55,645 bases of DNA from Singulisphaera sp. GP187 (GTDB taxonomy: Bacteria > Planctomycetota > Planctomycetia > Gemmatales > Gemmataceae). Position numbers and translations under genes: made by a program. Position 1 is the stretch's first letter, and the number at the start of each line of letters is the position of its first letter. Under the pieces are notes generated by a model. The model saw only the letters and a list, made by a program, of their open reading frames with translations. It did not search any database and was not told where the DNA came from. The DNA is taken from NCBI GenBank assembly GCA_945905925.1, contig CAMDQN010000027.1, positions 1 to 55,645 of the forward strand, given 5' to 3'. Shown piece after piece: positions 1,307 through 53,358 of the stretch.

Positions 1307-1373
1307 TGGCGAACCCGAAGCGTCCGCGACGGGGTTGACGCTTCACCCCGTCGCGGACGCTCCAGGTTCGCCA
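1307..1373. repeat. Inverted repeat upstream of purB, RTRSVSDG family
   Basis: Arms 1307-1335 and 1345-1373 (29 bases each) pair with two mismatches around a 9-base loop, ending 14 bases before the purB start codon. The same units, GCGAACC, GAGCGTC and GACGGGGT, recur in the element at 44733-44812 inside the pyruvate carboxylase gene. One family is therefore found both between and within genes. So close to the start codon it could affect purB translation. Confidence 0.85.
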
Positions 1374-1387
1374 GAATTCTTCAAGTT

Positions 1388-2869
1388 ATGACCACCGAAA
1401 CCGACGTGTACGACAATCCGCTGATCGGCCGCTACGCTTCCAATGAGATGGCCGAGCGCTGGGGACCACTGCGGAAGTTCCGCACGTGGCGCCGGCTCTG
1501 GCTCGCGCTCGCGGAAGCGGAAGCCGAGTTGGGACTCCTCGCGGACGACGGTGTTTCGCCGCGCATCACGACGCCTCAACTCGCGGAACTTCGCGCGCAC
1601 CTCGACGACATCGACCTGACACACGCCGCCGCACACGAGAAGCGCCTGCGACACGACGTGATGGCGCACATCCACGCGCTCGGTGACATCGCTCCCGGCT
1701 GCAAGGAGATCGTTCACCTCGGCGCGACGTCGTGCTACGTCACCGACAACGCCGACCTGATTCTGATGCGCGAGAGCCTGAACCAGTTGTGCGAATCGCT
1801 CGCGTGCGTGATCGACGCGCTCGCGGTGTTCGCAACCACCTGGAAGGACGAACCGGCGCTCGGCTTCACGCACTTCCAGCCGGCCCAACTCACAACCGTA
1901 GGGAAGCGCGCAACGCTGTGGCTGTTCGACTTCGTCCTCGATCTGCAAGAACTCGAACGCCGGCGCGATGAACTACCGTTCCGCGGGGCGAAGGGCACGA
2001 CCGGCACGCAGGCGAGTTTCCTCGCGCTGTTCCGTGGCGATCACGACAAAGTGAAGGCGCTCGACCAACTCGTTGCGAAGAAGATGGGCTTTAGCCGCGT
2101 GTTCCCGGTCACGGGGCAGACCTACTCGCGCAAAATCGACACGCAACTATTAGATGCGGTCAACGGTCTCGCGCAGAGCGCGCACAAGTGGGGCACCGAC
2201 CTGCGGTTGCTCGCTCACCGGCAGGAAATCGACGAACCGTTTGAGGCGGAGCAGATCGGGTCGAGCGCGATGGCGTACAAGCGGAACCCGATGCGAGCGG
2301 AGCGCATGTGCAGTCTTTCGCGATTCATTTCGGGCTTACCCGCGATGGCCGCGAACACCGCTTCAACGCAGTGGTTCGAACGGACCCTCGATGACAGCGC
2401 GTGTCGCAGGCTGTACATCCCGCAAGGCTTTCTCGCGGCCGACGCGGTGTTGCGCATCGCGCTAAACCTGCTCACACAGAAGAACGAGAGTGGTCGCGGG
2501 CTTGTGGTGAACCGCCCAGTGATCGCGAAGAACGTGCGCGAACACCTGCCCTACATGGTGACTGAGAACCTGATGATGGCCGCGGTGCGGGCCGGCGAGG
2601 ACCGGCAGGTCGTTCACGAAATCGTACGGCAGCACAGCCACGCGGTCACAGCTCGCGTGAAGTCCGGCGAAGGCTCACCGACGGAGCTGTTCGCGCGGTT
2701 AAAGGACGAGGGCGTGTTCGCGAAGGTAGATTTCGGCGAACTGCTTGATGCTCGCCAGTTCGTCGGGCGCTCGCCCGAGCAGGTCGAAGAGTTCGTGAAG
2801 GAATACGTCGCGCCGATTCGCGCGAGTTATGTGGGTGTGTTGGGGAAAACGGCGGAGTTGCATGTATGA
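1388..2869 (+). CDS. purB: Adenylosuccinate lyase
   Basis: This 493-residue member of the fumarase/aspartase superfamily splits adenylosuccinate into AMP and fumarate. It also splits SAICAR in purine synthesis. The family signature SSAMAYKRNP lies near residue 293, with the helical superfamily features HLGATSCYVTDNADL and THFQPAQ earlier. The ATG at 1388 gives the expected N-terminus (DNPLIGRYAS). An in-frame extension further upstream would run through the hairpin element and is unlikely to be translated. The gene stands alone and converges on the helicase gene. Confidence 0.95.
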   Translation: MTTETDVYDNPLIGRYASNEMAERWGPLRKFRTWRRLWLALAEAEAELGLLADDGVSPRITTPQLAELRAHLDDIDLTHAAAHEKRLRHDVMAHIHALGDIAPGCKEIVHLGATSCYVTDNADLILMRESLNQLCESLACVIDALAVFATTWKDEPALGFTHFQPAQLTTVGKRATLWLFDFVLDLQELERRRDELPFRGAKGTTGTQASFLALFRGDHDKVKALDQLVAKKMGFSRVFPVTGQTYSRKIDTQLLDAVNGLAQSAHKWGTDLRLLAHRQEIDEPFEAEQIGSSAMAYKRNPMRAERMCSLSRFISGLPAMAANTASTQWFERTLDDSACRRLYIPQGFLAADAVLRIALNLLTQKNESGRGLVVNRPVIAKNVREHLPYMVTENLMMAAVRAGEDRQVVHEIVRQHSHAVTARVKSGEGSPTELFARLKDEGVFAKVDFGELLDARQFVGRSPEQVEEFVKEYVAPIRASYVGVLGKTAELHV

Positions 2870-17540: not shown

Positions 17541-17549
17541 GAAAGAATA

Positions 17550-17642
17550 AGGGATGAAGGATGAAGAATGAACCAAGACAGGAGAAGCTCCGAGTTGGCC
17601 TCGCTGTCTTGGTTTCTAGTTCATCCTTCATCCTTCATCCCT
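17550..17642. repeat. Imperfect inverted repeat, GGATGAAGG family
   Basis: The left arm 17550-17581 (repeats of GGATGAA, then CCAAGACAG) pairs with the right arm 17604-17642 (CTGTCTTGG, then repeats of TTCATCC), apart from a short bulge and one mismatch. It fills most of the gap between the LuxE-like and reductase genes and ends before the AGGAGA ribosome site at 17655. A related element lies at 50169-50259. Confidence 0.85.
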
Positions 17643-17667
17643 CATCCCTCATTCAGGAGACTCTCCG

Positions 17668-19114: not shown

Positions 19115-19187
19115 GTGACCGTGTAAAGCCGCGACCCGACGGAGAGCGCGCAGGGCGTTCCTTCGGGTCGTGGCTTTACACGGTCAC
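19115..19187. repeat. 25-bp inverted repeat at the pseudogene edge
   Basis: Arms 19115-19139 and 19163-19187 (starting GTGACCGTGTAAAGCC) differ at one position, around a 23-base loop. The element lies 17 bases after the reductase stop, directly before the recognisable pseudogene sequence. It may mark the site where that gene was truncated, or serve as the terminator of the reductase gene. Confidence 0.85.
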
Positions 19188-26958: not shown

Positions 26959-28022
26959 GCCGTTCCCGCATTACTGTCGTCCTCTCGCAGGCACCCGGAA
27001 AGCACCCCGCGAAGCGCGCGCTCGAAGAAAGTATTGTCGCGGCGTTACTGCTCGACCCGGAACTGGAAGTCTCGGTCGTGCCCAACCTCTACGATCTCGG
27101 ACCCGACCACACCGGACGTCTATTCCTCGGCGCGGTCAAGGGGGACATGATCGTGCTCTCGTGGATCTACCCGCGCGCCGCGTTCTGGCTACTCGACCGC
27201 AACGGCATCAAGGGGCACTTCGGCGAAACCCAATTGAAGCCTCCAGCGGACGACGAGGAAGAGGACGGTGCGGACGCCGACACACCCGTCGAGAAGCCCG
27301 AAGCGATTGGGCCGGCGGGCGTGATTCCCGACCGACACATTTTCACGCTCGACCTGCGCGACTCCAACAAGCACGAGGCTTACGTTGCCGAGATTAATCG
27401 CATTTCCGCAGAGTGCCGCGACCGGCGTGACCTGAAGGCGCGCGAAAAGGCAGTGAACAGCCCCGCGATCATCCAACTGGGGTTGTCGCTCCGGGATGAA
27501 CAGGGGGCTGACGCCCCCCGCTCGCCAATCGCGATGGGGGCGTTCACGCCGGAGGCGATGCTCGCGCCCGCCGGTCGCCGGTGGTACCCGGTGATCGACT
27601 ACAACCGCTGCACGAACTGCCTCGAATGCCTCGACTTCTGCCTCTTCGGGGTCTACGGCGTCGATTCGATTGAGCGCATCCTGGTCGAGAACCAGGATCA
27701 GTGCAAGAAAGGCTGTCCCGCGTGCAGTCGCGTGTGCCCGCAGCAGGCGATCATCTTCCCTGAATACAAGTCGCCCGCAATCGCGGGAGCGGAAACGGGC
27801 ATCGTCGGCGGGTTGAAGATCGACCTGAGCCGGTTGTTCGGTGGCGACGTGGGCGACGCGATTTCCGCCGCCGTGAGCGAGCGCGACCGCGAACTCCTGA
27901 ACGATGGACGCGAAGCGGTCGGCATGGCCGTGGGCATCCCGAAGCGCCAGACCGACAAACCACAGGGCCCGAAGGACGATCTCGATAGACTCGTGGACGA
28001 CCTCGATAACTTGGGGTTGTGA
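26955..28022 (+). CDS. 4Fe-4S ferredoxin-domain protein
   Basis: This 355-residue protein is co-translated with the NYN protein (ATGA overlap). Residues about 216-275 carry a two-cluster ferredoxin domain, CTNCLECLDFC and CKKGCPACSRVCP, with an insertion between the clusters. The first 200 residues resemble no family I can name. They contain a hydrophobic segment, LSWIYPRAAFWLLDRNGI, and a stretch rich in acidic residues. The C-terminus is charged. A palindromic repeat unit lies in frame just before the cluster domain (27495-27526). Its role is unknown; electron transfer is likely. Pairing with a putative RNase is unusual. Confidence 0.75.
   Translation: MSRSRITVVLSQAPGKHPAKRALEESIVAALLLDPELEVSVVPNLYDLGPDHTGRLFLGAVKGDMIVLSWIYPRAAFWLLDRNGIKGHFGETQLKPPADDEEEDGADADTPVEKPEAIGPAGVIPDRHIFTLDLRDSNKHEAYVAEINRISAECRDRRDLKAREKAVNSPAIIQLGLSLRDEQGADAPRSPIAMGAFTPEAMLAPAGRRWYPVIDYNRCTNCLECLDFCLFGVYGVDSIERILVENQDQCKKGCPACSRVCPQQAIIFPEYKSPAIAGAETGIVGGLKIDLSRLFGGDVGDAISAAVSERDRELLNDGREAVGMAVGIPKRQTDKPQGPKDDLDRLVDDLDNLGL
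27495..27526. repeat. In-frame copy of the GGGGGCTTACGCCCCC repeat
   Basis: The 26 bases 27501-27526 match the right arm of the element at 30853-30886 with one difference (CTGACG for CTTACG). They form a small hairpin, GGGGGC/GCCCCC. They encode about ten residues (DEQGADAPRS) within the ferredoxin gene without a frameshift. Confidence 0.75.
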
Positions 28023-28997: not shown

Positions 28998-29138
28998 TCA
29001 CGCGAGTTTGCTGCCCGCGAGCAATTCCGGCATGAACAGCACATGCCCAGCCTCGAGCGCATCGGTGATAACGCCCTGCTCCGCCGCACGGAGACTGCTG
29101 TCCCATGCGGTCACGTGGCTCGGATGAATCGCGGACAT
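28998..29138 (-). pseudogene. Short N-terminal gene remnant, possibly Kdo-hydroxylase-like
   Basis: A 46-codon reading frame, beginning MSAIHPSHVTAW, includes ITDALEAGHVLFMPEL. That phrase resembles the N-terminus of Kdo-hydroxylase-type iron/2-oxoglutarate oxygenases (LE.G.VL.FP.L). It stops right after the conserved phrase, and nothing matching the catalytic part follows. It is most likely a stump left by a deletion. The family assignment is from memory of the pattern and is weak. Otherwise the stretch 28982-29221 holds nothing I can identify. Confidence 0.3.
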
Positions 29139-29221
29139 CGGGGGCGTCTTCGTCGGCCGGGGACGCTCAGATCCTACAATCGACGCAGTTAGCCCGCGTG
29201 CTCGAATCAAACGGACGCGAC

Positions 29222-31069
29222 ATGATCCCCGCAGACCGCATGAAGAGCGCGTATCTCGTCGCTCGCGACGCGCTCCTCGCTGAGCGCGTGCCTGAGGGTC
29301 ACTGGGTCGGCGAGCTTTCCACCTCCGCACTCTCGACTGCGACCGCGGTGATGGCTCTTCATCTGGTGAACCCGATCGAGCACCGCGAGCGCATCGACGC
29401 CGGAACGCGCTGGCTAGCGGACCACCAGAACGAGGACGGCGGGTGGGGCGACACGGTCAAGAGCCTCTCGAACATCTCGACAACGATGCTCTGCCGCGCG
29501 GCGTTCAAACTGGTCGGCGAGAAGGAGCACGACGAAACAATTCGGAGAGTGGAAGCCTTCATCACACTGCAGGCGGGCGCGATCCCGGCGCGCCGGGCCG
29601 CGGCGATCCGCGCGCGGTACGGCAAGGATCACACGTTCTCGGTTCCGATCCTGATGACTTGCGCAATCGCAAAGATGGTTCCCTGGGAAGAAGTCCCGCG
29701 ACTGCCGTTCGAGGCCGCGTACCTTCCTCAAAGTTGGTATCGCTTCGCGCGTATGCCGGTGGTGAGCTACGCGCTGCCCGCACTCATCGCGATCGGGCAA
29801 TGCATCCACAATCACCGGCGTTCGCGCAACCCGATTCGCAACGCGGTGCGGCGGTTCGTTCGCGGGCGCACGCTGAGGGTACTTCGGCGCATCCAACCGA
29901 CAACCGGCGGCTACCTCGAAGCAACGCCGCTCACGAGTTTCGTCGTGATGGCGCTGGCGAGTATCCGCCGCCGGCGCTCGGTCGCAGAAACGCAAGTGAT
30001 CGACGAAGGCGTACGGTTCATCGTGAGTTCGGTGCGCCCTGATGGAAGTTGGCCGATCGACACGAACCTCGCGACGTGGGTAACAACTCTCAGCGTGAAC
30101 GCCCTCGCAGCCGCGAACGATCTCGGCGCGCTCAACTCGAAGGAACAGATTCTCGCGTGGCTGTTGAGGCAGCAATACAAGGAGCGTCACCCGTACACGG
30201 GCGCCGACCCCGGCGGTTGGGCGTGGACCGACCTCGCGGGCGGCGTCCCCGATTGCGACGACACGCCGGGGGCGATGTTGGCAGTCCGCGTGCTGCGGGC
30301 GAAGAAAATAGCCACCGACCGCACGGCCCTAGACGAAGCAGTCTCCCAAACCCTCCGAGGGGAGGTGGAAGGAGGCTTGGCGCTGAAGTGGATCTGGGGG
30401 CTGCAAAACCGTGACGGGGGCTTTCCCACTTTCTGTCGCGGTTGGGGCACCCTCCCGTTTGACCGTAGCGGTGCGGATCTCACCGCGCACGCGCTTCGTG
30501 CGATCGGAGCCGATTACACGGGCCTGTTGTACCTCGGGAAGGAACAGCGGCCGGATGGCTCGTGGCTTCCACTGTGGTTCGGGAACCAGCACGCGCCGGA
30601 CGACATCAACCCCGTGTACGGCACCGCGCGTGTGCTGGCCGCGTACCGCGATCTGGGGATGAAGGATTCACCGGAGTGCGTTCGCGGGGTGGCTTACCTG
30701 CTGTCCGTGCAGAACGCCGACGGCGGATGGGGTGGCGCGAAGGATTGCCCTTCGAGCGTGGAAGAGACGGCGCTCGCGGTGGAGGTACTCATCGATTTGG
30801 CGAGCGGGGGGCGTAAGTCCCCCGATGAACCTCAACACGAATTGAACGTGGCAGGTTCATCAGGGGGCTTACGCCCCCCGCTCGCCTCGGAGGTTGAACG
30901 AGGAATCGCGTGGCTCGTGGAGGCCGTCGAATCGGGCCGGTTCCGCGACCCTAGCCCCATCGGGTTCTACTTCGCGAAACTCTGGTACTTCGAGAAACTG
31001 TACCCGCTCATCTTCACGGTCGCGGCGCTCGGACGCGCCCGCTTCGCGACTTCGTCTACCAACGAGTAA
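29222..31069 (+). CDS. Squalene-hopene cyclase-like protein
   Basis: About 615 residues belong to the prenyltransferase/squalene cyclase alpha-alpha barrel superfamily. QW-type repeats recur: QNEDGGWGDTV, QNRDGGFPTF, RPDGSWLPLWFG and QNADGGWGGA. The class II cyclase acid motif is present as DCDDT at Asp344-Asp347, in GGVPDCDDTPGAM. It could therefore cyclise a polyprene such as squalene, as in hopanoid or sterol-related pathways, although no other such genes are near. The ATG at 29222 is chosen; an upstream extension looks non-coding. Residues about 527-556 come from an inserted hairpin repeat and should be absent from relatives. Confidence 0.8.
   Translation: MIPADRMKSAYLVARDALLAERVPEGHWVGELSTSALSTATAVMALHLVNPIEHRERIDAGTRWLADHQNEDGGWGDTVKSLSNISTTMLCRAAFKLVGEKEHDETIRRVEAFITLQAGAIPARRAAAIRARYGKDHTFSVPILMTCAIAKMVPWEEVPRLPFEAAYLPQSWYRFARMPVVSYALPALIAIGQCIHNHRRSRNPIRNAVRRFVRGRTLRVLRRIQPTTGGYLEATPLTSFVVMALASIRRRRSVAETQVIDEGVRFIVSSVRPDGSWPIDTNLATWVTTLSVNALAAANDLGALNSKEQILAWLLRQQYKERHPYTGADPGGWAWTDLAGGVPDCDDTPGAMLAVRVLRAKKIATDRTALDEAVSQTLRGEVEGGLALKWIWGLQNRDGGFPTFCRGWGTLPFDRSGADLTAHALRAIGADYTGLLYLGKEQRPDGSWLPLWFGNQHAPDDINPVYGTARVLAAYRDLGMKDSPECVRGVAYLLSVQNADGGWGGAKDCPSSVEETALAVEVLIDLASGGRKSPDEPQHELNVAGSSGGLRPPLASEVERGIAWLVEAVESGRFRDPSPIGFYFAKLWYFEKLYPLIFTVAALGRARFATSSTNE
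30799..30886. repeat. 34-bp inverted repeat inserted in the cyclase gene
   Basis: Arms 30799-30832 and 30853-30886 (GGCGAGCGGGGGGCGTAAG and onward) pair with two mismatches around a 20-base loop. The element is read through in frame as about 30 residues containing GGRKSPDEP and GGLRPP. Partial copies lie at 27495-27526 in the ferredoxin gene and at 33169-33190 in uvrA. Confidence 0.9.
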
Positions 31070-31159: not shown

Positions 31160-38233
<7,074 letters not shown>

Positions 38234-38236
38234 CGG

Positions 38237-38318
38237 GTCTCAAGTCAACAAGTCTCAAGTCAAAGACCTTCGCTGCTGTGGACTTCGACATGAGACTTGA
38301 GACTTGTTGACTTGAGAC
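38237..38318. repeat. 25-bp perfect inverted repeat, TCTCAAGTC family
   Basis: Arms 38237-38261 and 38294-38318 are exact complements around 32 bases. They fill the gap between uvrA (stop 38233) and the convergent hydrolase gene (stop 38325). The repeat unit is the same as in the element at 681-767, in the same kind of site. Confidence 0.9.
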
Positions 38319-38324
38319 TCCTCT

Positions 38325-42807: not shown

Positions 42808-45800
42808 TCACTCGAACCGGATCACGAGGTCGCCGCCTTCGACCTGCACTCCGGGGCGAACGAGGACTTCCGCCACCTTCCCGGGTCGGTCGGCGTGGAG
42901 CGTGGTTTCCATCTTCATCGCCTCGAGCGTGAACAACTTCTGCCCGGCCGCGACCTCGTCGCCGGGCGCCACCGCGACCGCGACCACCGCACCCGGCATC
43001 GGCGCGGCGACGTGTTTTGTGTTCCCGGACTCGGCCTTCGCACGCGCCTTCACCGCGCCTGCGCTCAGCGACTTGTCCGCGACAATCACCTCGCGCGGCT
43101 GACCGTTCAGCTCGAAGTACACCACACGCCGGCCGTCCGGTTGCGCCTCGCCGATGGTGAGGAACTTGATGATCAGCGTTTTGCCCGCTTCAATCTCGAT
43201 GCTGACTTCCTCGCCCTTCATCATGCCGAAGAAGAACGCGGGCGTCGGCAGCACGCTCAGGTCCGAATACTTCGCCTGATGCTCAGCGTACTCGGCAAAC
43301 ACTTTCGGGTACAGGATGTAGGAGATCACATCCTGGTCGCTCGGCGGGCGGCGCAACTTCCCTTCGAGTTCGCTCGTGGCTTTCGCTAGGTCTGCCGGCG
43401 GGAGTGTCGCGCCGGGGCGATCCGTCAGCGGCTTTCTCCCTCGCAAGATTCGCGTTTGCAGAGCAGGCGGAAACCCACCGGGCGGCTGACCGAGTTTGCC
43501 CTCGAAGAACTCCACCACGGATTCCGGGAATGCGATCTCGCGCTTCGGGTCCAGCACCATCTCCGGCGTGAGGTTGTTCGCCATCATGAACAGCGTCATG
43601 TCACCGACGACCTTCGACGTCGGCGTCACCTTCACGATGTCACCGAACATCTGGTTGACGGATGCGTACATCTTGCCGACCTCGTTCCAGCGCTCGCCGA
43701 CACCGAGCGAGTGCGCCTGTTGGTAGAGATTCGCGTACTGCCCGCCTGGCATCTCGTGGAGATAGACCTCGGCCGAACTCGCAAGTTGCCCCGTCTCGAA
43801 CGGAGAGTAGAGTTTGCGCACGCGGTCCCAATAATTCGCGGTTGCTTGAAGTGCGTCGAAACTCAGCCCGGTGTCGCGCGGCGTGAACCGCGTCGTCTCA
43901 ACGAGCGCGTTCAGGCTCGGCTGGGAAGTCACGCCGGCCATCGGCGCGAACGCGCAATCGACGATGCTCACGCCCTCTTCTGCGGCCATCATGTACGACG
44001 CGAGTTGCCCGCCGGCGCTGTCGTGCGTGTGAAAGTGAATCGGTACACCGACGGCCTCGCGCAGGGCCTTCACGAGTCGCTTCGCGGCGTAGGGTTTGAG
44101 CAACCCGGCCATGTCCTTGATCGCGAGGAGGTGCGTCCCGAGTTTCTCCAGTTCCTTCGCGAGGTTCACGAAGTAGTTGAGCGTGTACTTGTCCCGCTTC
44201 GGATTGAGAATGTCGCCTGTGTAACAGATCGCGGCCTCGCAGATCGCATTCGTCTTGAGGACCGCGTCGATTCCGAGTCTGATGTTCGGGAGCCAGTTGT
44301 TCGCATCGAAGATGCGGAAGATGTCCATGCCGGCTTCGGCAGAGAGCCTGATGAACTCGTACACCACGTTATCAGGATAGTTCGTGTAGCCGACCGCACT
44401 TGCGGCGCGCACCAGCATCTGGAACAGGATGTTCGGGACGCGCTCGCGCAGTTGGGCGAGCCGGTCCCACGGTGATTCCTTCAAGAATCGCATCGCGGTG
44501 TCGAACGTCGCTCCCCCCCACATCTCCATCGAGAACAGGTCGGCGTGTTCGCGCGCGTAGCGATCCGCAATGGCGAGCATGTCGAAAGTGCGCATCCGGG
44601 TCGCGAACAGCGACTGATGCGCGTCCCGCATCGTCGTGTCGGTCACGAGCAAGCGGGTTTGCTCGCGCGTCCACTGGGCGAACTTCGTCGCCCCGAGTTC
44701 CTTGAACTTGTCGCGAGTTCCATTCGGCAACAGCGAACCCTGAGTGTTGGCGACGGGGTGAGCGCGGCCTGATGGGATTGGGTTCACCCCGTCACTGACG
44801 CTCCGGGTTCGCCCTTTAGCGATCTCCGGGTGCCCGTTGACGATGATCTCCGCGAGGTACGACAACACCTTCGTCGCGCGGTCGCGGCGCGCCGTGAAGC
44901 GGAACAGGTCCGGGGTTTCGTCGAGGAATCGCGTGGTCACATCACCTGCGAGGAACTGCTGGTGGCTGATCAGGTTCAACAAAAAAGGAATGTTCGTCTT
45001 AACACCGCGAACACGGAACTCCTGGAGGCATCGCTCCATTCGCGTCGCGCAGTCCGCGAACGTCAAGCCGCTAACGGTCACCTTCACGAGCAACGAGTCG
45101 TAGAACGGCGTAATGACCGCGCCGCCGAACGCGGTCCCCGCGTCGAGCCTGATGCCGGGACCGCCGCTCGAACGGTACGCGCTGAGGCGCCCGTAATCGG
45201 GCACGAAGCCGTTCGCGGGGTCTTCGGTCGTCACGCGGCACTGAATCGCGAACCCGCGTGTACTGATCGCGCTCTGCTCCAGACCGACGCGTGCGTGATT
45301 CAACGGCAGCCCGGAAGCAATCAGGATCTGCGACCGGACGATGTCGAAGCCCGTGACTTGTTCGGTAACCGTGTGTTCGACCTGAATGCGCGGATTCACT
45401 TCGATGAAGTAGAACCGCTTCGCGTCGGTGTCGTAGAGGAACTCGACCGTACTCGCGTTGTCAATGCCGCATGCCTTGCCCACAGAGAGCGCCGCGTCGA
45501 GAATGCCCTGCCGGATGTCGTCGGGTAGACTGGGTGCGGGTGCGAGTTCGACAACCTTCTGATGCCGCCTCTGGATGGAACAGTCGCGCTCGAAGAGGTG
45601 AACCAATCCGCCGTGCTTGTCGCCGATCAACTGCACTTCGATGTGCTTGGCACGCACCACGAATTTTTCGAGGAACACATCGGCGATGCCGAATGCGGCG
45701 CCGGCTTCGCGTTGCGCCGACTCGACTGCCTCGTGGAGTTTGTCCGCGATGTGGACGACTCGCATCCCGCGACCGCCGCCGCCCATCGAAGCTTTCACGA

Positions 45801-46290
45801 TCACTGGGTAGCCGAGTTTCTCCGCGAGTGCCGTTGCTTCGGCCGCGCTCGCGAGCGGGCTATCGCCGCCGGAAAGAACCGGTACATTCGCCTTCTGCGC
45901 GATCGCGCGCGCGGTCACCTTGTCGCCGAGTTGCTCCAACACCTCCGGGCGTGGGCCGACGAACGTGATTCCCGCATCAGCACAGGCGCGTGCGAACGCT
46001 GCGTTTTCCGAGAGAAAGCCGTAACCGGGGTGAATGGCATCGACGCCCACTTCCTTCGCGAGTTTCACGATGCCGAGAATGTCGAGGTAGGCACGGATCG
46101 GCTCGCCGGGTTTTCCGACCTGATACGCCTCGTCCGCTTTGAATCGGTGGAGCGCGAACCGGTCCTCATGCGAGTAGATCGCGACCGTACGAATACCGAG
46201 TTCGTGGGCCGAGCGGAACACCCGGATCGCGATCTCACTCCGGTTCGCAACGAGCAACTTCCTGAACGGTCTGGATTTCACGTCCGGCAT
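42808..46290 (-). CDS. pyc: Pyruvate carboxylase
   Basis: About 1160 residues make oxaloacetate from pyruvate, bicarbonate and ATP. In order are the biotin carboxylase domain (LLVANRSEIAIRV, GYGFLSENAAFA, VKASMGGGGRGMRV), the carboxyltransferase domain (VTDTTMRDAHQSLFATRMRT, KDMAGLL) and a biotinyl carrier domain with EAMKMET, its lysine near 1126. The full single-chain form is present. The ATG at 46290 has GAGG upstream; an earlier GTG adds 11 residues. Residues about 493-520, between the biotin carboxylase and carboxyltransferase domains, derive from an inserted palindromic element. BirA in this window is the likely biotinylating enzyme. Confidence 0.95.
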   Translation of the reverse strand: MPDVKSRPFRKLLVANRSEIAIRVFRSAHELGIRTVAIYSHEDRFALHRFKADEAYQVGKPGEPIRAYLDILGIVKLAKEVGVDAIHPGYGFLSENAAFARACADAGITFVGPRPEVLEQLGDKVTARAIAQKANVPVLSGGDSPLASAAEATALAEKLGYPVIVKASMGGGGRGMRVVHIADKLHEAVESAQREAGAAFGIADVFLEKFVVRAKHIEVQLIGDKHGGLVHLFERDCSIQRRHQKVVELAPAPSLPDDIRQGILDAALSVGKACGIDNASTVEFLYDTDAKRFYFIEVNPRIQVEHTVTEQVTGFDIVRSQILIASGLPLNHARVGLEQSAISTRGFAIQCRVTTEDPANGFVPDYGRLSAYRSSGGPGIRLDAGTAFGGAVITPFYDSLLVKVTVSGLTFADCATRMERCLQEFRVRGVKTNIPFLLNLISHQQFLAGDVTTRFLDETPDLFRFTARRDRATKVLSYLAEIIVNGHPEIAKGRTRSVSDGVNPIPSGRAHPVANTQGSLLPNGTRDKFKELGATKFAQWTREQTRLLVTDTTMRDAHQSLFATRMRTFDMLAIADRYAREHADLFSMEMWGGATFDTAMRFLKESPWDRLAQLRERVPNILFQMLVRAASAVGYTNYPDNVVYEFIRLSAEAGMDIFRIFDANNWLPNIRLGIDAVLKTNAICEAAICYTGDILNPKRDKYTLNYFVNLAKELEKLGTHLLAIKDMAGLLKPYAAKRLVKALREAVGVPIHFHTHDSAGGQLASYMMAAEEGVSIVDCAFAPMAGVTSQPSLNALVETTRFTPRDTGLSFDALQATANYWDRVRKLYSPFETGQLASSAEVYLHEMPGGQYANLYQQAHSLGVGERWNEVGKMYASVNQMFGDIVKVTPTSKVVGDMTLFMMANNLTPEMVLDPKREIAFPESVVEFFEGKLGQPPGGFPPALQTRILRGRKPLTDRPGATLPPADLAKATSELEGKLRRPPSDQDVISYILYPKVFAEYAEHQAKYSDLSVLPTPAFFFGMMKGEEVSIEIEAGKTLIIKFLTIGEAQPDGRRVVYFELNGQPREVIVADKSLSAGAVKARAKAESGNTKHVAAPMPGAVVAVAVAPGDEVAAGQKLFTLEAMKMETTLHADRPGKVAEVLVRPGVQVEGGDLVIRFE
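44733..44812. repeat. Inverted repeat inserted in pyruvate carboxylase gene, RTRSVSDG family
   Basis: Arms 44733-44761 and 44784-44812 (29 bases each) pair with about five mismatches around 22 bases. Read on the minus strand, they encode GRTRSVSDGVNPIPSGRAHP and onward. The arm sequence matches that of the element at 1307-1373 upstream of purB. Confidence 0.85.
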
Positions 46291-46361
46291 CCGGCGAACC
46301 TCACGAGCGGCGAGCGACAACACTAGTGTGATAGGAAACGCAACAGCGCACTACAAATGAG

Positions 46362-51462: not shown

Positions 51463-53358
51463 TCAATCCAGATAAAGCAACAGCATTGCTAGGTCGGCCG
51501 GGGTGATGCCGCTGATGCGGCTCGCCTGGCCCAAACTCGTGGGGCGCACCCGACTCAACTTCTCGCGCGCTTCGTGCCTGAGTTGGTGAACTGCGGCGTA
51601 ATCGAACGCGGTCGGGATGCGCCGGTTCTCCAGTCGCTGGAATCGCTCCACATCCGCTGTCTGTCGCGCAATGTAGCCGGTGTACTTGGCCTCCAGAACC
51701 ACCTGTTCCACCACCTCGGGCCGTGTGTCCCATTCCGCCAACGCGGGCAGACGCGCGCAGACCTCCGACCATTCCACCTCCGTGCGGCGGAGCCACGTCG
51801 CGAGTGTGTCACCGGCGCTGCGGTTTGTCTTTAGCGCAGTCTGGAGTTCGGTGATTCCCTGCTCCTTGCGCTGGAAGCGTTCCCACTCGGCATCGCTCAC
51901 CGAACCGACGCGCCGGCCGAGTGGCGTGAGTCGGCGGTCTGCGTTGTCGTGGCGCAGAAGCAGCCGGTACTCCGCGCGCGACGTGAACATGCGGTATGGT
52001 TCGTCCACGCCCTTCGTCACGAGATCGTCGATCAACACCCCTATGTACGCCTGGCTCCGGTCAAGTACGAGCGGCGATTCCCCCTTTAACTTGAGAGCAG
52101 CATTCAAGCCCGCCATCAACCCCTGCGCCGCGGCCTCCTCATACCCGGTGGTGCCGTTGATCTGCCCCGCGAAGTAAAGCCCGCTAACCGGCTTGGTTTC
52201 GAGCGTCGGGTGAAGTTGCGTCGGCGGGGCGTAGTCGTACTCGACCGCGTATCCCCAGCGCATCACCTCCGCGTTCTCCAGCCCGGGGATGAGCTTCAAC
52301 ATCGCGGCCTGCACGTCTTTCGGGAGGCTGGTGCTGATGCCGTTGCAATAATATTCGCGCGTACTCAGCCCTTCGGGCTCAAGGAAGATGAGGTGCGAGT
52401 CCTTGTCCGCGAACCTAACCACTTTGTCCTCGATGGAAGGGCAATACCGCGGCCCGCGACCACATATCTGGCCGCTGTACATCGGGGCGCGATGAAGGTT
52501 CGCGCGGATGATGTCGTGAACCGCGGGCGTGGTCTCGGTGCTGTGGCACACCACCTGCGGTACGGTAATCTTCTCGGTGCTGAAGCTGAACGGCCTGGGG
52601 GTCGCGTCGCCCGGCTGAACGGTGCATTTCGTGAAGTCGATGGTGCGTCCGTTGAGACGGCACGGAGTCCCGGTCTTGAATCGCGCGAGTTCAAAGCCGG
52701 CTTCGGCAAGACTGCCGCTCATGCCCTCGGCGGACGAATCACCGGCGCGCCCGCCAACGGTCTTCGCCTCGCCGGTGTGCATGATCGCTTTGAGGAAGGT
52801 GCCCGTGGTGAGGATCACCGCGGAGGCGAGATACCGCGTGTCACCACGCGCGACGACGCCGAGGACTCTTTGAATGGCGGAAGGCGGAAGGCGGAAGGCG
52901 GAGAAAGATGAAGCCGGGTTCTCTGATTCCTCTCCGCCTTCCGCCTTCCGCCCTCCGCCTTCTTCGATCAGCAGACCCTCAACCAACTCTTGGCGGAGCG
53001 TCAAGTTCTCCTGCTCCTCGACCCAGCGTTTCATCGTGAACTGGTACAACTTCTTGTCCGCCTGCGCGCGCGGCGAGTGCATCGCTGGCCCTTTGGACAG
53101 GTTCAGCACACGGAACTGAATGCCGCTCGCGTCGATGCACTTCCCCATCACGCCGCCGAGAGCGTCGATCTCGCGAACGATCTGACCCTTCGCGACGCCG
53201 CCGATCGCGGGGTTGCAACTCATCTGCGCGACCGCGTCCGCGTTCATGCTCAGGAGGCACGTCTTCAGGCCGAGGCGGGCCGAGGCCATCGCCGCTTCCG
53301 TCCCCGCGTGCCCGGCCCCAACCACGACAACATCGAAACGGTATTCCAGACTGCTCAC
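51463..53358 (-). CDS. mnmG: tRNA uridine-5-carboxymethylaminomethyl modification enzyme
   Basis: This 631-residue FAD enzyme (GidA) works with MnmE to place carboxymethylaminomethyl groups on wobble uridine 34 of certain tRNAs. It starts at GTG with GAGG five bases before. Seen are [21 protein letters not shown] (FAD), [66 protein letters not shown] and the C-terminal helical domain. Residues about 133-161 ([11 protein letters not shown] to [11 protein letters not shown]) derive from a palindromic repeat and have no place in the family. They lie between strands of the FAD domain, so the insert is presumably a surface loop. MnmE is not nearby. Confidence 0.96.
52876..52962. repeat. GGCGGAAGGCGGAAGG inverted repeat inserted in mnmG
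   Basis: The core arms 52883-52904 and 52931-52952 are exact complements (units of GGCGGAA and TTCCGCC) around 26 bases; the outer parts pair less well. The element is read in frame as about 29 residues of mnmG. Confidence 0.9.

Follow-up and report, generated by a model that had tools for sequence, protein, structure and literature searches.

GGCGA-tagged, REPIN-like palindromic repeats of Gemmata between genes and, by reading frame, within linkers of conserved proteins

Background

Among the described systems closest to the repeats reported here, REPINs have been proposed to depend for their movement on a Y1 transposase acting in trans (PMC3116915, in the part considered here). Some GTAG- and CGTC-tagged REPs lie inside ORFs such as uvrA, and recB of two Xanthomonas species carries different REPs at about the same site, according to the part of PMC3733652 considered here.

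We have analyzed a stretch of 55,645 nucleotides (the window; contig CAMDQN010000027.1 of assembly GCA_945905925.1, deposited as Singulisphaera sp. GP187) from a genome treated here as one of the genus Gemmata and designated G000. An earlier note on this DNA had connected a hairpin insert in the pyruvate carboxylase gene with a hairpin upstream of purB. These hairpins belong to a repeat family, F1, which resembles REPINs but has a new end motif, GGCGA.

Methods

The F1 arm ACCCCGTCNNNGACGCTCCGGGTTCGCC (28 nt) was searched with up to three mismatches, and the pattern read backwards was used as the control. Pfam was run on ten F1-spanning ORFs of G000, ten of its relatives and ten F2-spanning ORFs; those without a domain (three, seven and three, respectively) were not counted as genes. 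Several Pfam matches in the spanning ORFs of G000, and the DUF1801 match of locus L221, lay away from the element and were not accepted as spanning evidence. In the relatives, part of the F1 loci was inspected for in-protein copies. The F2 loci inspected comprised 29 rows of 30, representing 27 distinct places; all are perfect matches, so they are not a random sample.

The pyruvate carboxylase comparison comprised 18 rows of the 19 genomes, G018 being left out as it has no linker. For GltB, the distant matches (34-40%) of G001, G004 and G013, the genome without a match (G015) and the antisense ORFs in the G007 and G009 rows were set aside. The squalene-hopene cyclase comparison leaves out G010, and G015 was not judgeable. 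A quick tree was built from pyruvate carboxylase, GltB and PurB after removal of the pyruvate carboxylase and GltB linkers.

Results

An F1 pair in pyruvate carboxylase and another upstream of purB

The features of the window that concern F1 are as follows.

1308..1372 (+): F1 inverted pair with a 9-nt spacer, upstream of purB; one extra T/A pair gives 1307-1373
1388..2869 (+): purB, adenylosuccinate lyase, with Lyase_1 and ADSL_C
42808..46323 (-): pyruvate carboxylase, 1171 aa, with the element in the BC-CT linker
44732..44813 (-): F1 inverted pair of two GGCGA-tagged hairpin units with a 26-nt spacer, in-frame in pyruvate carboxylase as GRTRSVSDGVNPIPSGRAHPVANTQGS

The ORF at 42808-46323 can be aligned with solved pyruvate carboxylases, e.g. 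2qf7, across almost its full length, and it matches Biotin_carb_N, CPSase_L_D2, Biotin_carb_C (361-469), HMGL-like, PYC_OADA (853-1053) and Biotin_lipoyl in Pfam. The peptide GRTRSVSDGVNP...HPVANTQGS is placed between Biotin_carb_C and the carboxyltransferase part. Its DNA is an imperfect palindrome with inverted arms of 28 nt each (44732-44759 and 44786-44813), the outer unit at 44732 being degenerate and beginning AGCGA. The predicted fold of the transcribed strand has -49.3 kcal/mol, versus -30.5 +/- 3.7 for shuffles (z -5.1), and that of the opposite strand reaches z -7.5; the purB-leader hairpin reaches z -8.9 against shuffles.

As the earlier note had it, the hairpin at 1307-1373 ends 14 bases (1374-1387) 5' of the purB ATG at 1388 and has arms in common with the linker insert, here 83% over 29 nt. 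Compared with the family consensus, the four arms of these two copies have 1, 2, 2 and 4 deviating bases in 28 positions. The assignment of coding and non-coding copies to one family was also borne out, the family not being limited to pyruvate carboxylases but occurring in GltB, ApbE, PKS-like and NtrC-type proteins as well. The peptide RTRSVSDG, which the earlier note had proposed to search for, occurs literally in pyruvate carboxylase only among the spanning ORFs of this genome with a Pfam domain; the GltB copy is read in a different frame, as ANPERQQRG. The expectation of copies inside many unrelated proteins suits F1 less well than its sister family F2.

Copy number, distribution and anatomy of F1

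The F1 arm has 34 matches in this genome of 6.47 Mb, versus 0 for the reversed control. F1 is present in 12 of 59 genomes including this one, all within the genus (12 of 19; 0 of the 40 others searched), though three that are counted among the 12 (G004, G005 and G008) have 1-2 matches only. The unit is a 28-33 nt hairpin with 5' GGCGA, a CCCG stem, a tandem G-A/A-G mismatch, GC pairs and a GNNA loop. Like REPs and REPINs, it is a short, imperfect, hairpin-forming palindrome repeated through the genome. In G000, 24 places comprise 17 inverted pairs and 7 single units, one of which is a divergent variant; the GGCGA ends lie outside in 13 pairs and inside in 4, and spacers range from 2 to 32 nt (up to about 160 in G014).

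As in REPINs, inverted pairs prevail in G000 and their arms are matched, which is weaker in the other, smaller samples. Arms within a G000 pair agree at 25.3 of 28 positions, versus 23.7 when re-dealt (0/5000 permutations). The 26 pairs of G014, some with a weak second arm, give 25.8 versus 24.3 (0/5000), and the arms of 11 sampled pairs of G013 are likewise matched (8/5000). Matching is weaker in G018 (165/5000) and G010 (384/5000), and the two pairs each of G003 and G002 (2533/5000 each) are too few. Across 83 distinct units from seven genomes, compared with shuffles in which the relatedness of units was not kept, paired cells amount to 0.896 versus 0.852 +/- 0.006 and two-sided changes to 13 versus 3.3 (0/2000 shuffles for both). 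A hand-chosen set of 21 units points in the same direction (95.2% paired versus 84.3% shuffled), with one of five measures unexceptional (27/500).

Each base of the 5' GGCGA is conserved in 97-100% of F1 units (n = 32) and in 100% of F2 units (n = 37), these units having been picked by patterns that start with GGCGA. No base exceeds 60% at the 15 positions 5' of it, and at position 0, just before it, 75% of F1 units and 89% of F2 units have A or T. The unpaired GTAG/GTGG or CGTC end tetranucleotide of classical REPs is absent from F1 and F2; CGTC is found solely inside the unit, where G013 and some G014 variants have CCTC instead.

At G014 loci L305, L308 and L309, an F1 arm forms a pair with the arm of another variant, so different variants are able to combine. 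Among the five '-+' pairs found in G000 and G003, three or four have similar spacers by eye (about AAGYGATTGG); in G013, three of the four also have spacers that resemble each other. G000 also has four 88-bp palindromes with a partly shared 32-nt core.

The window contains further inverted repeats. Those at 681-767, 17547-17661, 38237-38319 and 52876-52959 are built of heptamer-like units (for example TTCATCC and GGCGGAA) unlike F1, and repeats of a similar kind occur in the pyruvate carboxylase linker of G014. Another, at 19115-19187, has 29-nt arms and a 15-nt spacer.

F1 copies in and near other genes

At the level of sequence, F1 copies are shown in three settings: intergenic, immediately upstream of starts, and in-frame within linkers of conserved proteins. 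Of the 24 G000 places, the two in pyruvate carboxylase and GltB are clearly internal to a conserved protein; a third place is C-terminal, in an ApbE protein. In GltB, Glu_syn_central matches two stretches, and the better one (597-796, profile from 89) begins right behind the element at 568-595. Among the relatives, F1 occurs in the pyruvate carboxylase linker of G002 in the same frame as in G000, in an NtrC-type regulator of G003 between the receiver and sigma-54 domains, and, in G010, between the acyl transferase and the dehydratase of a PKS-like protein. Such predicted in-frame placement within an otherwise conserved protein is what characterizes intragenic REPs and RPEs. Stable F1 folds near starts are found at purB and, by eye, at a folD-like ORF and a Ser/Thr kinase ORF.

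The purB leader

The F1 pair upstream of purB is found solely in G000 among the leaders of 19 species. By eye, F2-like hairpins occupy about the same place in G015, G010 and G018, and the 3' border of the F1 pair in G000 is also that of the F2-like hairpin in its clade mate G015. Most species have a block like AAATCGTACAACAAAC about 100 nt upstream of purB (about 1274-1292 in the window; leaders L255-L273), and TCAAGTNATG is seen at the purB start in most. No Shine-Dalgarno sequence is evident by eye in leaders L255-L273. A sigma-70 promoter and terminator scan of 1150-1420 returned nothing, and Gemmata promoters need not fit the sigma-70 model.

The sister family F2

F2 (GGCGAGCGGGGGGCGTNAGCCCCC) has the same GGCGA start as F1 and 197 matches in this genome, versus 0 reversed. 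Counting this genome, 34 of 59 have F2 matches, some of them beyond the genus; the reversed control gives 1-2 matches in seven genomes (G007, G008, G009, G016, G026, G029 and G033), so genomes with few F2 matches are at noise level. The window holds three in-frame F2 copies.

27503..27526 (-): single F2 unit, in-frame in a plus-strand ORF (QGADAPRSP) with 4Fe-4S motifs downstream
29105..31069 (+): squalene-hopene cyclase; the best SQHop_cyclase_C stretch (335-657, in the stop-to-stop ORF from 29072) spans the insert at 575-605
30799..30886 (+): F2 inverted pair, in-frame in squalene-hopene cyclase
33169..33192 (+): single F2 unit, in-frame in a UvrA-type protein (LASGGRKPS), shortly 3' of a Walker A motif seen by eye

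Five of the 27 inspected F2 places are in-frame within or between Pfam domains, in an FGGY kinase, a PSD1 protein, squalene-hopene cyclase, a 2-oxoacid dehydrogenase acyltransferase and a class I tRNA synthetase. With less certainty, the 4Fe-4S ORF adds a sixth place to these five.

Recurrent sites across the genus

Among the pyruvate carboxylase linkers of 18 species, those of G000 and G002 hold F1. The linker of G013 carries a related palindrome with the GGCGA tag, that of G014 a long inverted repeat of a different kind and, by eye, those of G003 and G008 weaker inverted repeats; the repeats of G003, G008 and G014 are not F1. Folds as unusual as that of the linker arise in 0.02 of random windows of the same locus in G000, 0.007 in G002 and in G013, and 0.0 in G014. 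The element-free linker of G010 folds as unusually as that of G000 (0.02), and the linker of G008 folds no better than random windows (0.35). Linker length is similar with or without an element. Judged by eye, the element here and at purB seems to have taken the place of a native stretch of similar length instead of being inserted in addition. In the tree, G000 forms a group (SH-aLRT 100) with G003 and G015, both of which lack F1 in this linker, and G002 falls outside the 12-species clade of G000 (SH-aLRT 99). From these positions, the two F1 insertions in the linker look independent.

In GltB, 13 species were usable. G000 has the F1 pair, G014 a variant pair and, by eye, G002, G003 and G018 have single hairpins in the same frame. 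An 18-aa insert in G009 GltB adjoins the F1 site and is not palindromic (stem 5).

In squalene-hopene cyclase (18 species, loci L384-L403), nine are longer by at least 8 residues at the F2 site and eight have an empty site. In seven of the nine, the DNA that encodes the insert forms perfect stems of 10 to 29 nt, and at least three unlike palindromes are involved; stems in other insert blocks of this protein are 4 to 6 nt.

Search for a mobilizing enzyme

Y1_Tnp matches occur at 80 places in 16 of the 19 genomes of the genus. No F1 or F2 unit was found near the 32 of these places examined (about 1.5-2 kb on each side, less at contig ends), so no mobilizing enzyme is tied to either family. Against the NCBIfam IS200 cut-off, two of three Y1_Tnp proteins pass and one falls below. 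The genomes without Y1_Tnp (G007, G011 and G017) have 0, 0 and 0 F1 and 2, 0 and 0 F2 matches; G005, G009 and G012 have Y1_Tnp yet almost no copies (F1 1, 0 and 0; F2 0, 2 and 3).

At G013 locus L168 (1202-1364 and 1898-1937), hairpins such as TGCGAACCCGGGGCGTTGCCCCGGGTTCGC, with an F1-like left half, flank a Y1 transposase gene. They are a weak lead to the mobilizing enzyme.

Discussion

We consider it probable that F1 is a non-autonomous, REPIN-like palindromic repeat of Gemmata. It would spread as single-stranded hairpin DNA whose GGCGA foot is recognized by a trans-acting enzyme; the likeliest candidate is a Y1 (HUH) transposase, which has been proposed for REPINs. As no such transposase could be tied to F1 or F2, transposition is something we infer. 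In-frame copies would be translated, and copies in genes would persist only where the added or replaced linker is harmless and brings no stop or frameshift, which may be why the same linkers have been struck repeatedly in different species. The purB hairpin may be a tolerated leader structure, possibly with a regulatory role.

A rather unlikely but serious rival dispenses with transposition and has an old imperfect hairpin overwritten or perfected in place, by replication template switching or by gene conversion from other repeats. It is serious because the element seems to have taken the place of similar-length native sequence in pyruvate carboxylase and purB, and it would suit the matched arms within pairs, the mixed pairs of G014, the coincident 3' border in G000 and G015 and the similar length of the pyruvate carboxylase linker with or without an element. 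The short empty sites of squalene-hopene cyclase in eight species speak against it, since there the sequence must have been gained in the other species (or lost in the eight), and the similar spacers of '-+' pairs suggest that pairs move as units.

That the hairpins are regulatory RNA tuning the translation of purB and other genes seems improbable to us: the stable folds near starts and the F2-like hairpins ahead of purB in three other species would fit, but a scan of the whole window at the gathering threshold gave no Rfam match, F1 is confined to one of 19 purB leaders, and other copies lie inside proteins. We think still less of a MITE derived from a DDE insertion sequence with palindromic ends, for which the four 88-bp palindromes could be cited, since single units and both pair orientations exist and spacers vary widely.

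Returning to the REPIN-like reading, it is possible, and we suggest it tentatively, that GGCGA marks a third REP-like tag class, present in Gemmata and moved in trans by an unrecognised enzyme. Certain linkers of housekeeping proteins would then be standing landing sites at which unrelated palindromic families are gained independently and become linker. A small literature check found no repeats of this kind in Gemmata, and no account in which several palindrome families return to the same sites in several housekeeping proteins. Repeats usually called extragenic appear here to supply protein sequence, repeatedly and at the same positions. Gemmata offers a natural set of replicated insertions in which to see how selfish DNA turns into harmless protein linker; its sites bear on whether a position is chosen by the element or merely tolerated by the protein, and on which enzyme moves repeats beside which no RAYT was found.

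Compared with the REPIN/REP doublets of Bertels and Rainey 2011 (PMC3116915, in the part considered here), F1 has the same short hairpin units, mostly in inverted pairs that make one long hairpin, with compensatory changes across the pair and single units that are likely remnants. It differs in having no RAYT neighbor at the 32 places examined, in having GGCGA rather than GTAG/GTGG at its 5' end, and in that some copies are intragenic. The Rickettsia palindromic elements, as described in PMC3733652, are likewise in-frame palindromes in unrelated proteins, a likeness drawn from their description, and belong to a different host. With the GTAG- and CGTC-tagged REPs of Di Nocera 2013 (the same paper, to the extent considered here), F1 shares palindromic units with one unpaired conserved end and dimers in both orientations. 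Unlike them, the repeats of Gemmata have GGCGA as their end motif and place several palindrome families at one position of orthologues in many species of one genus.
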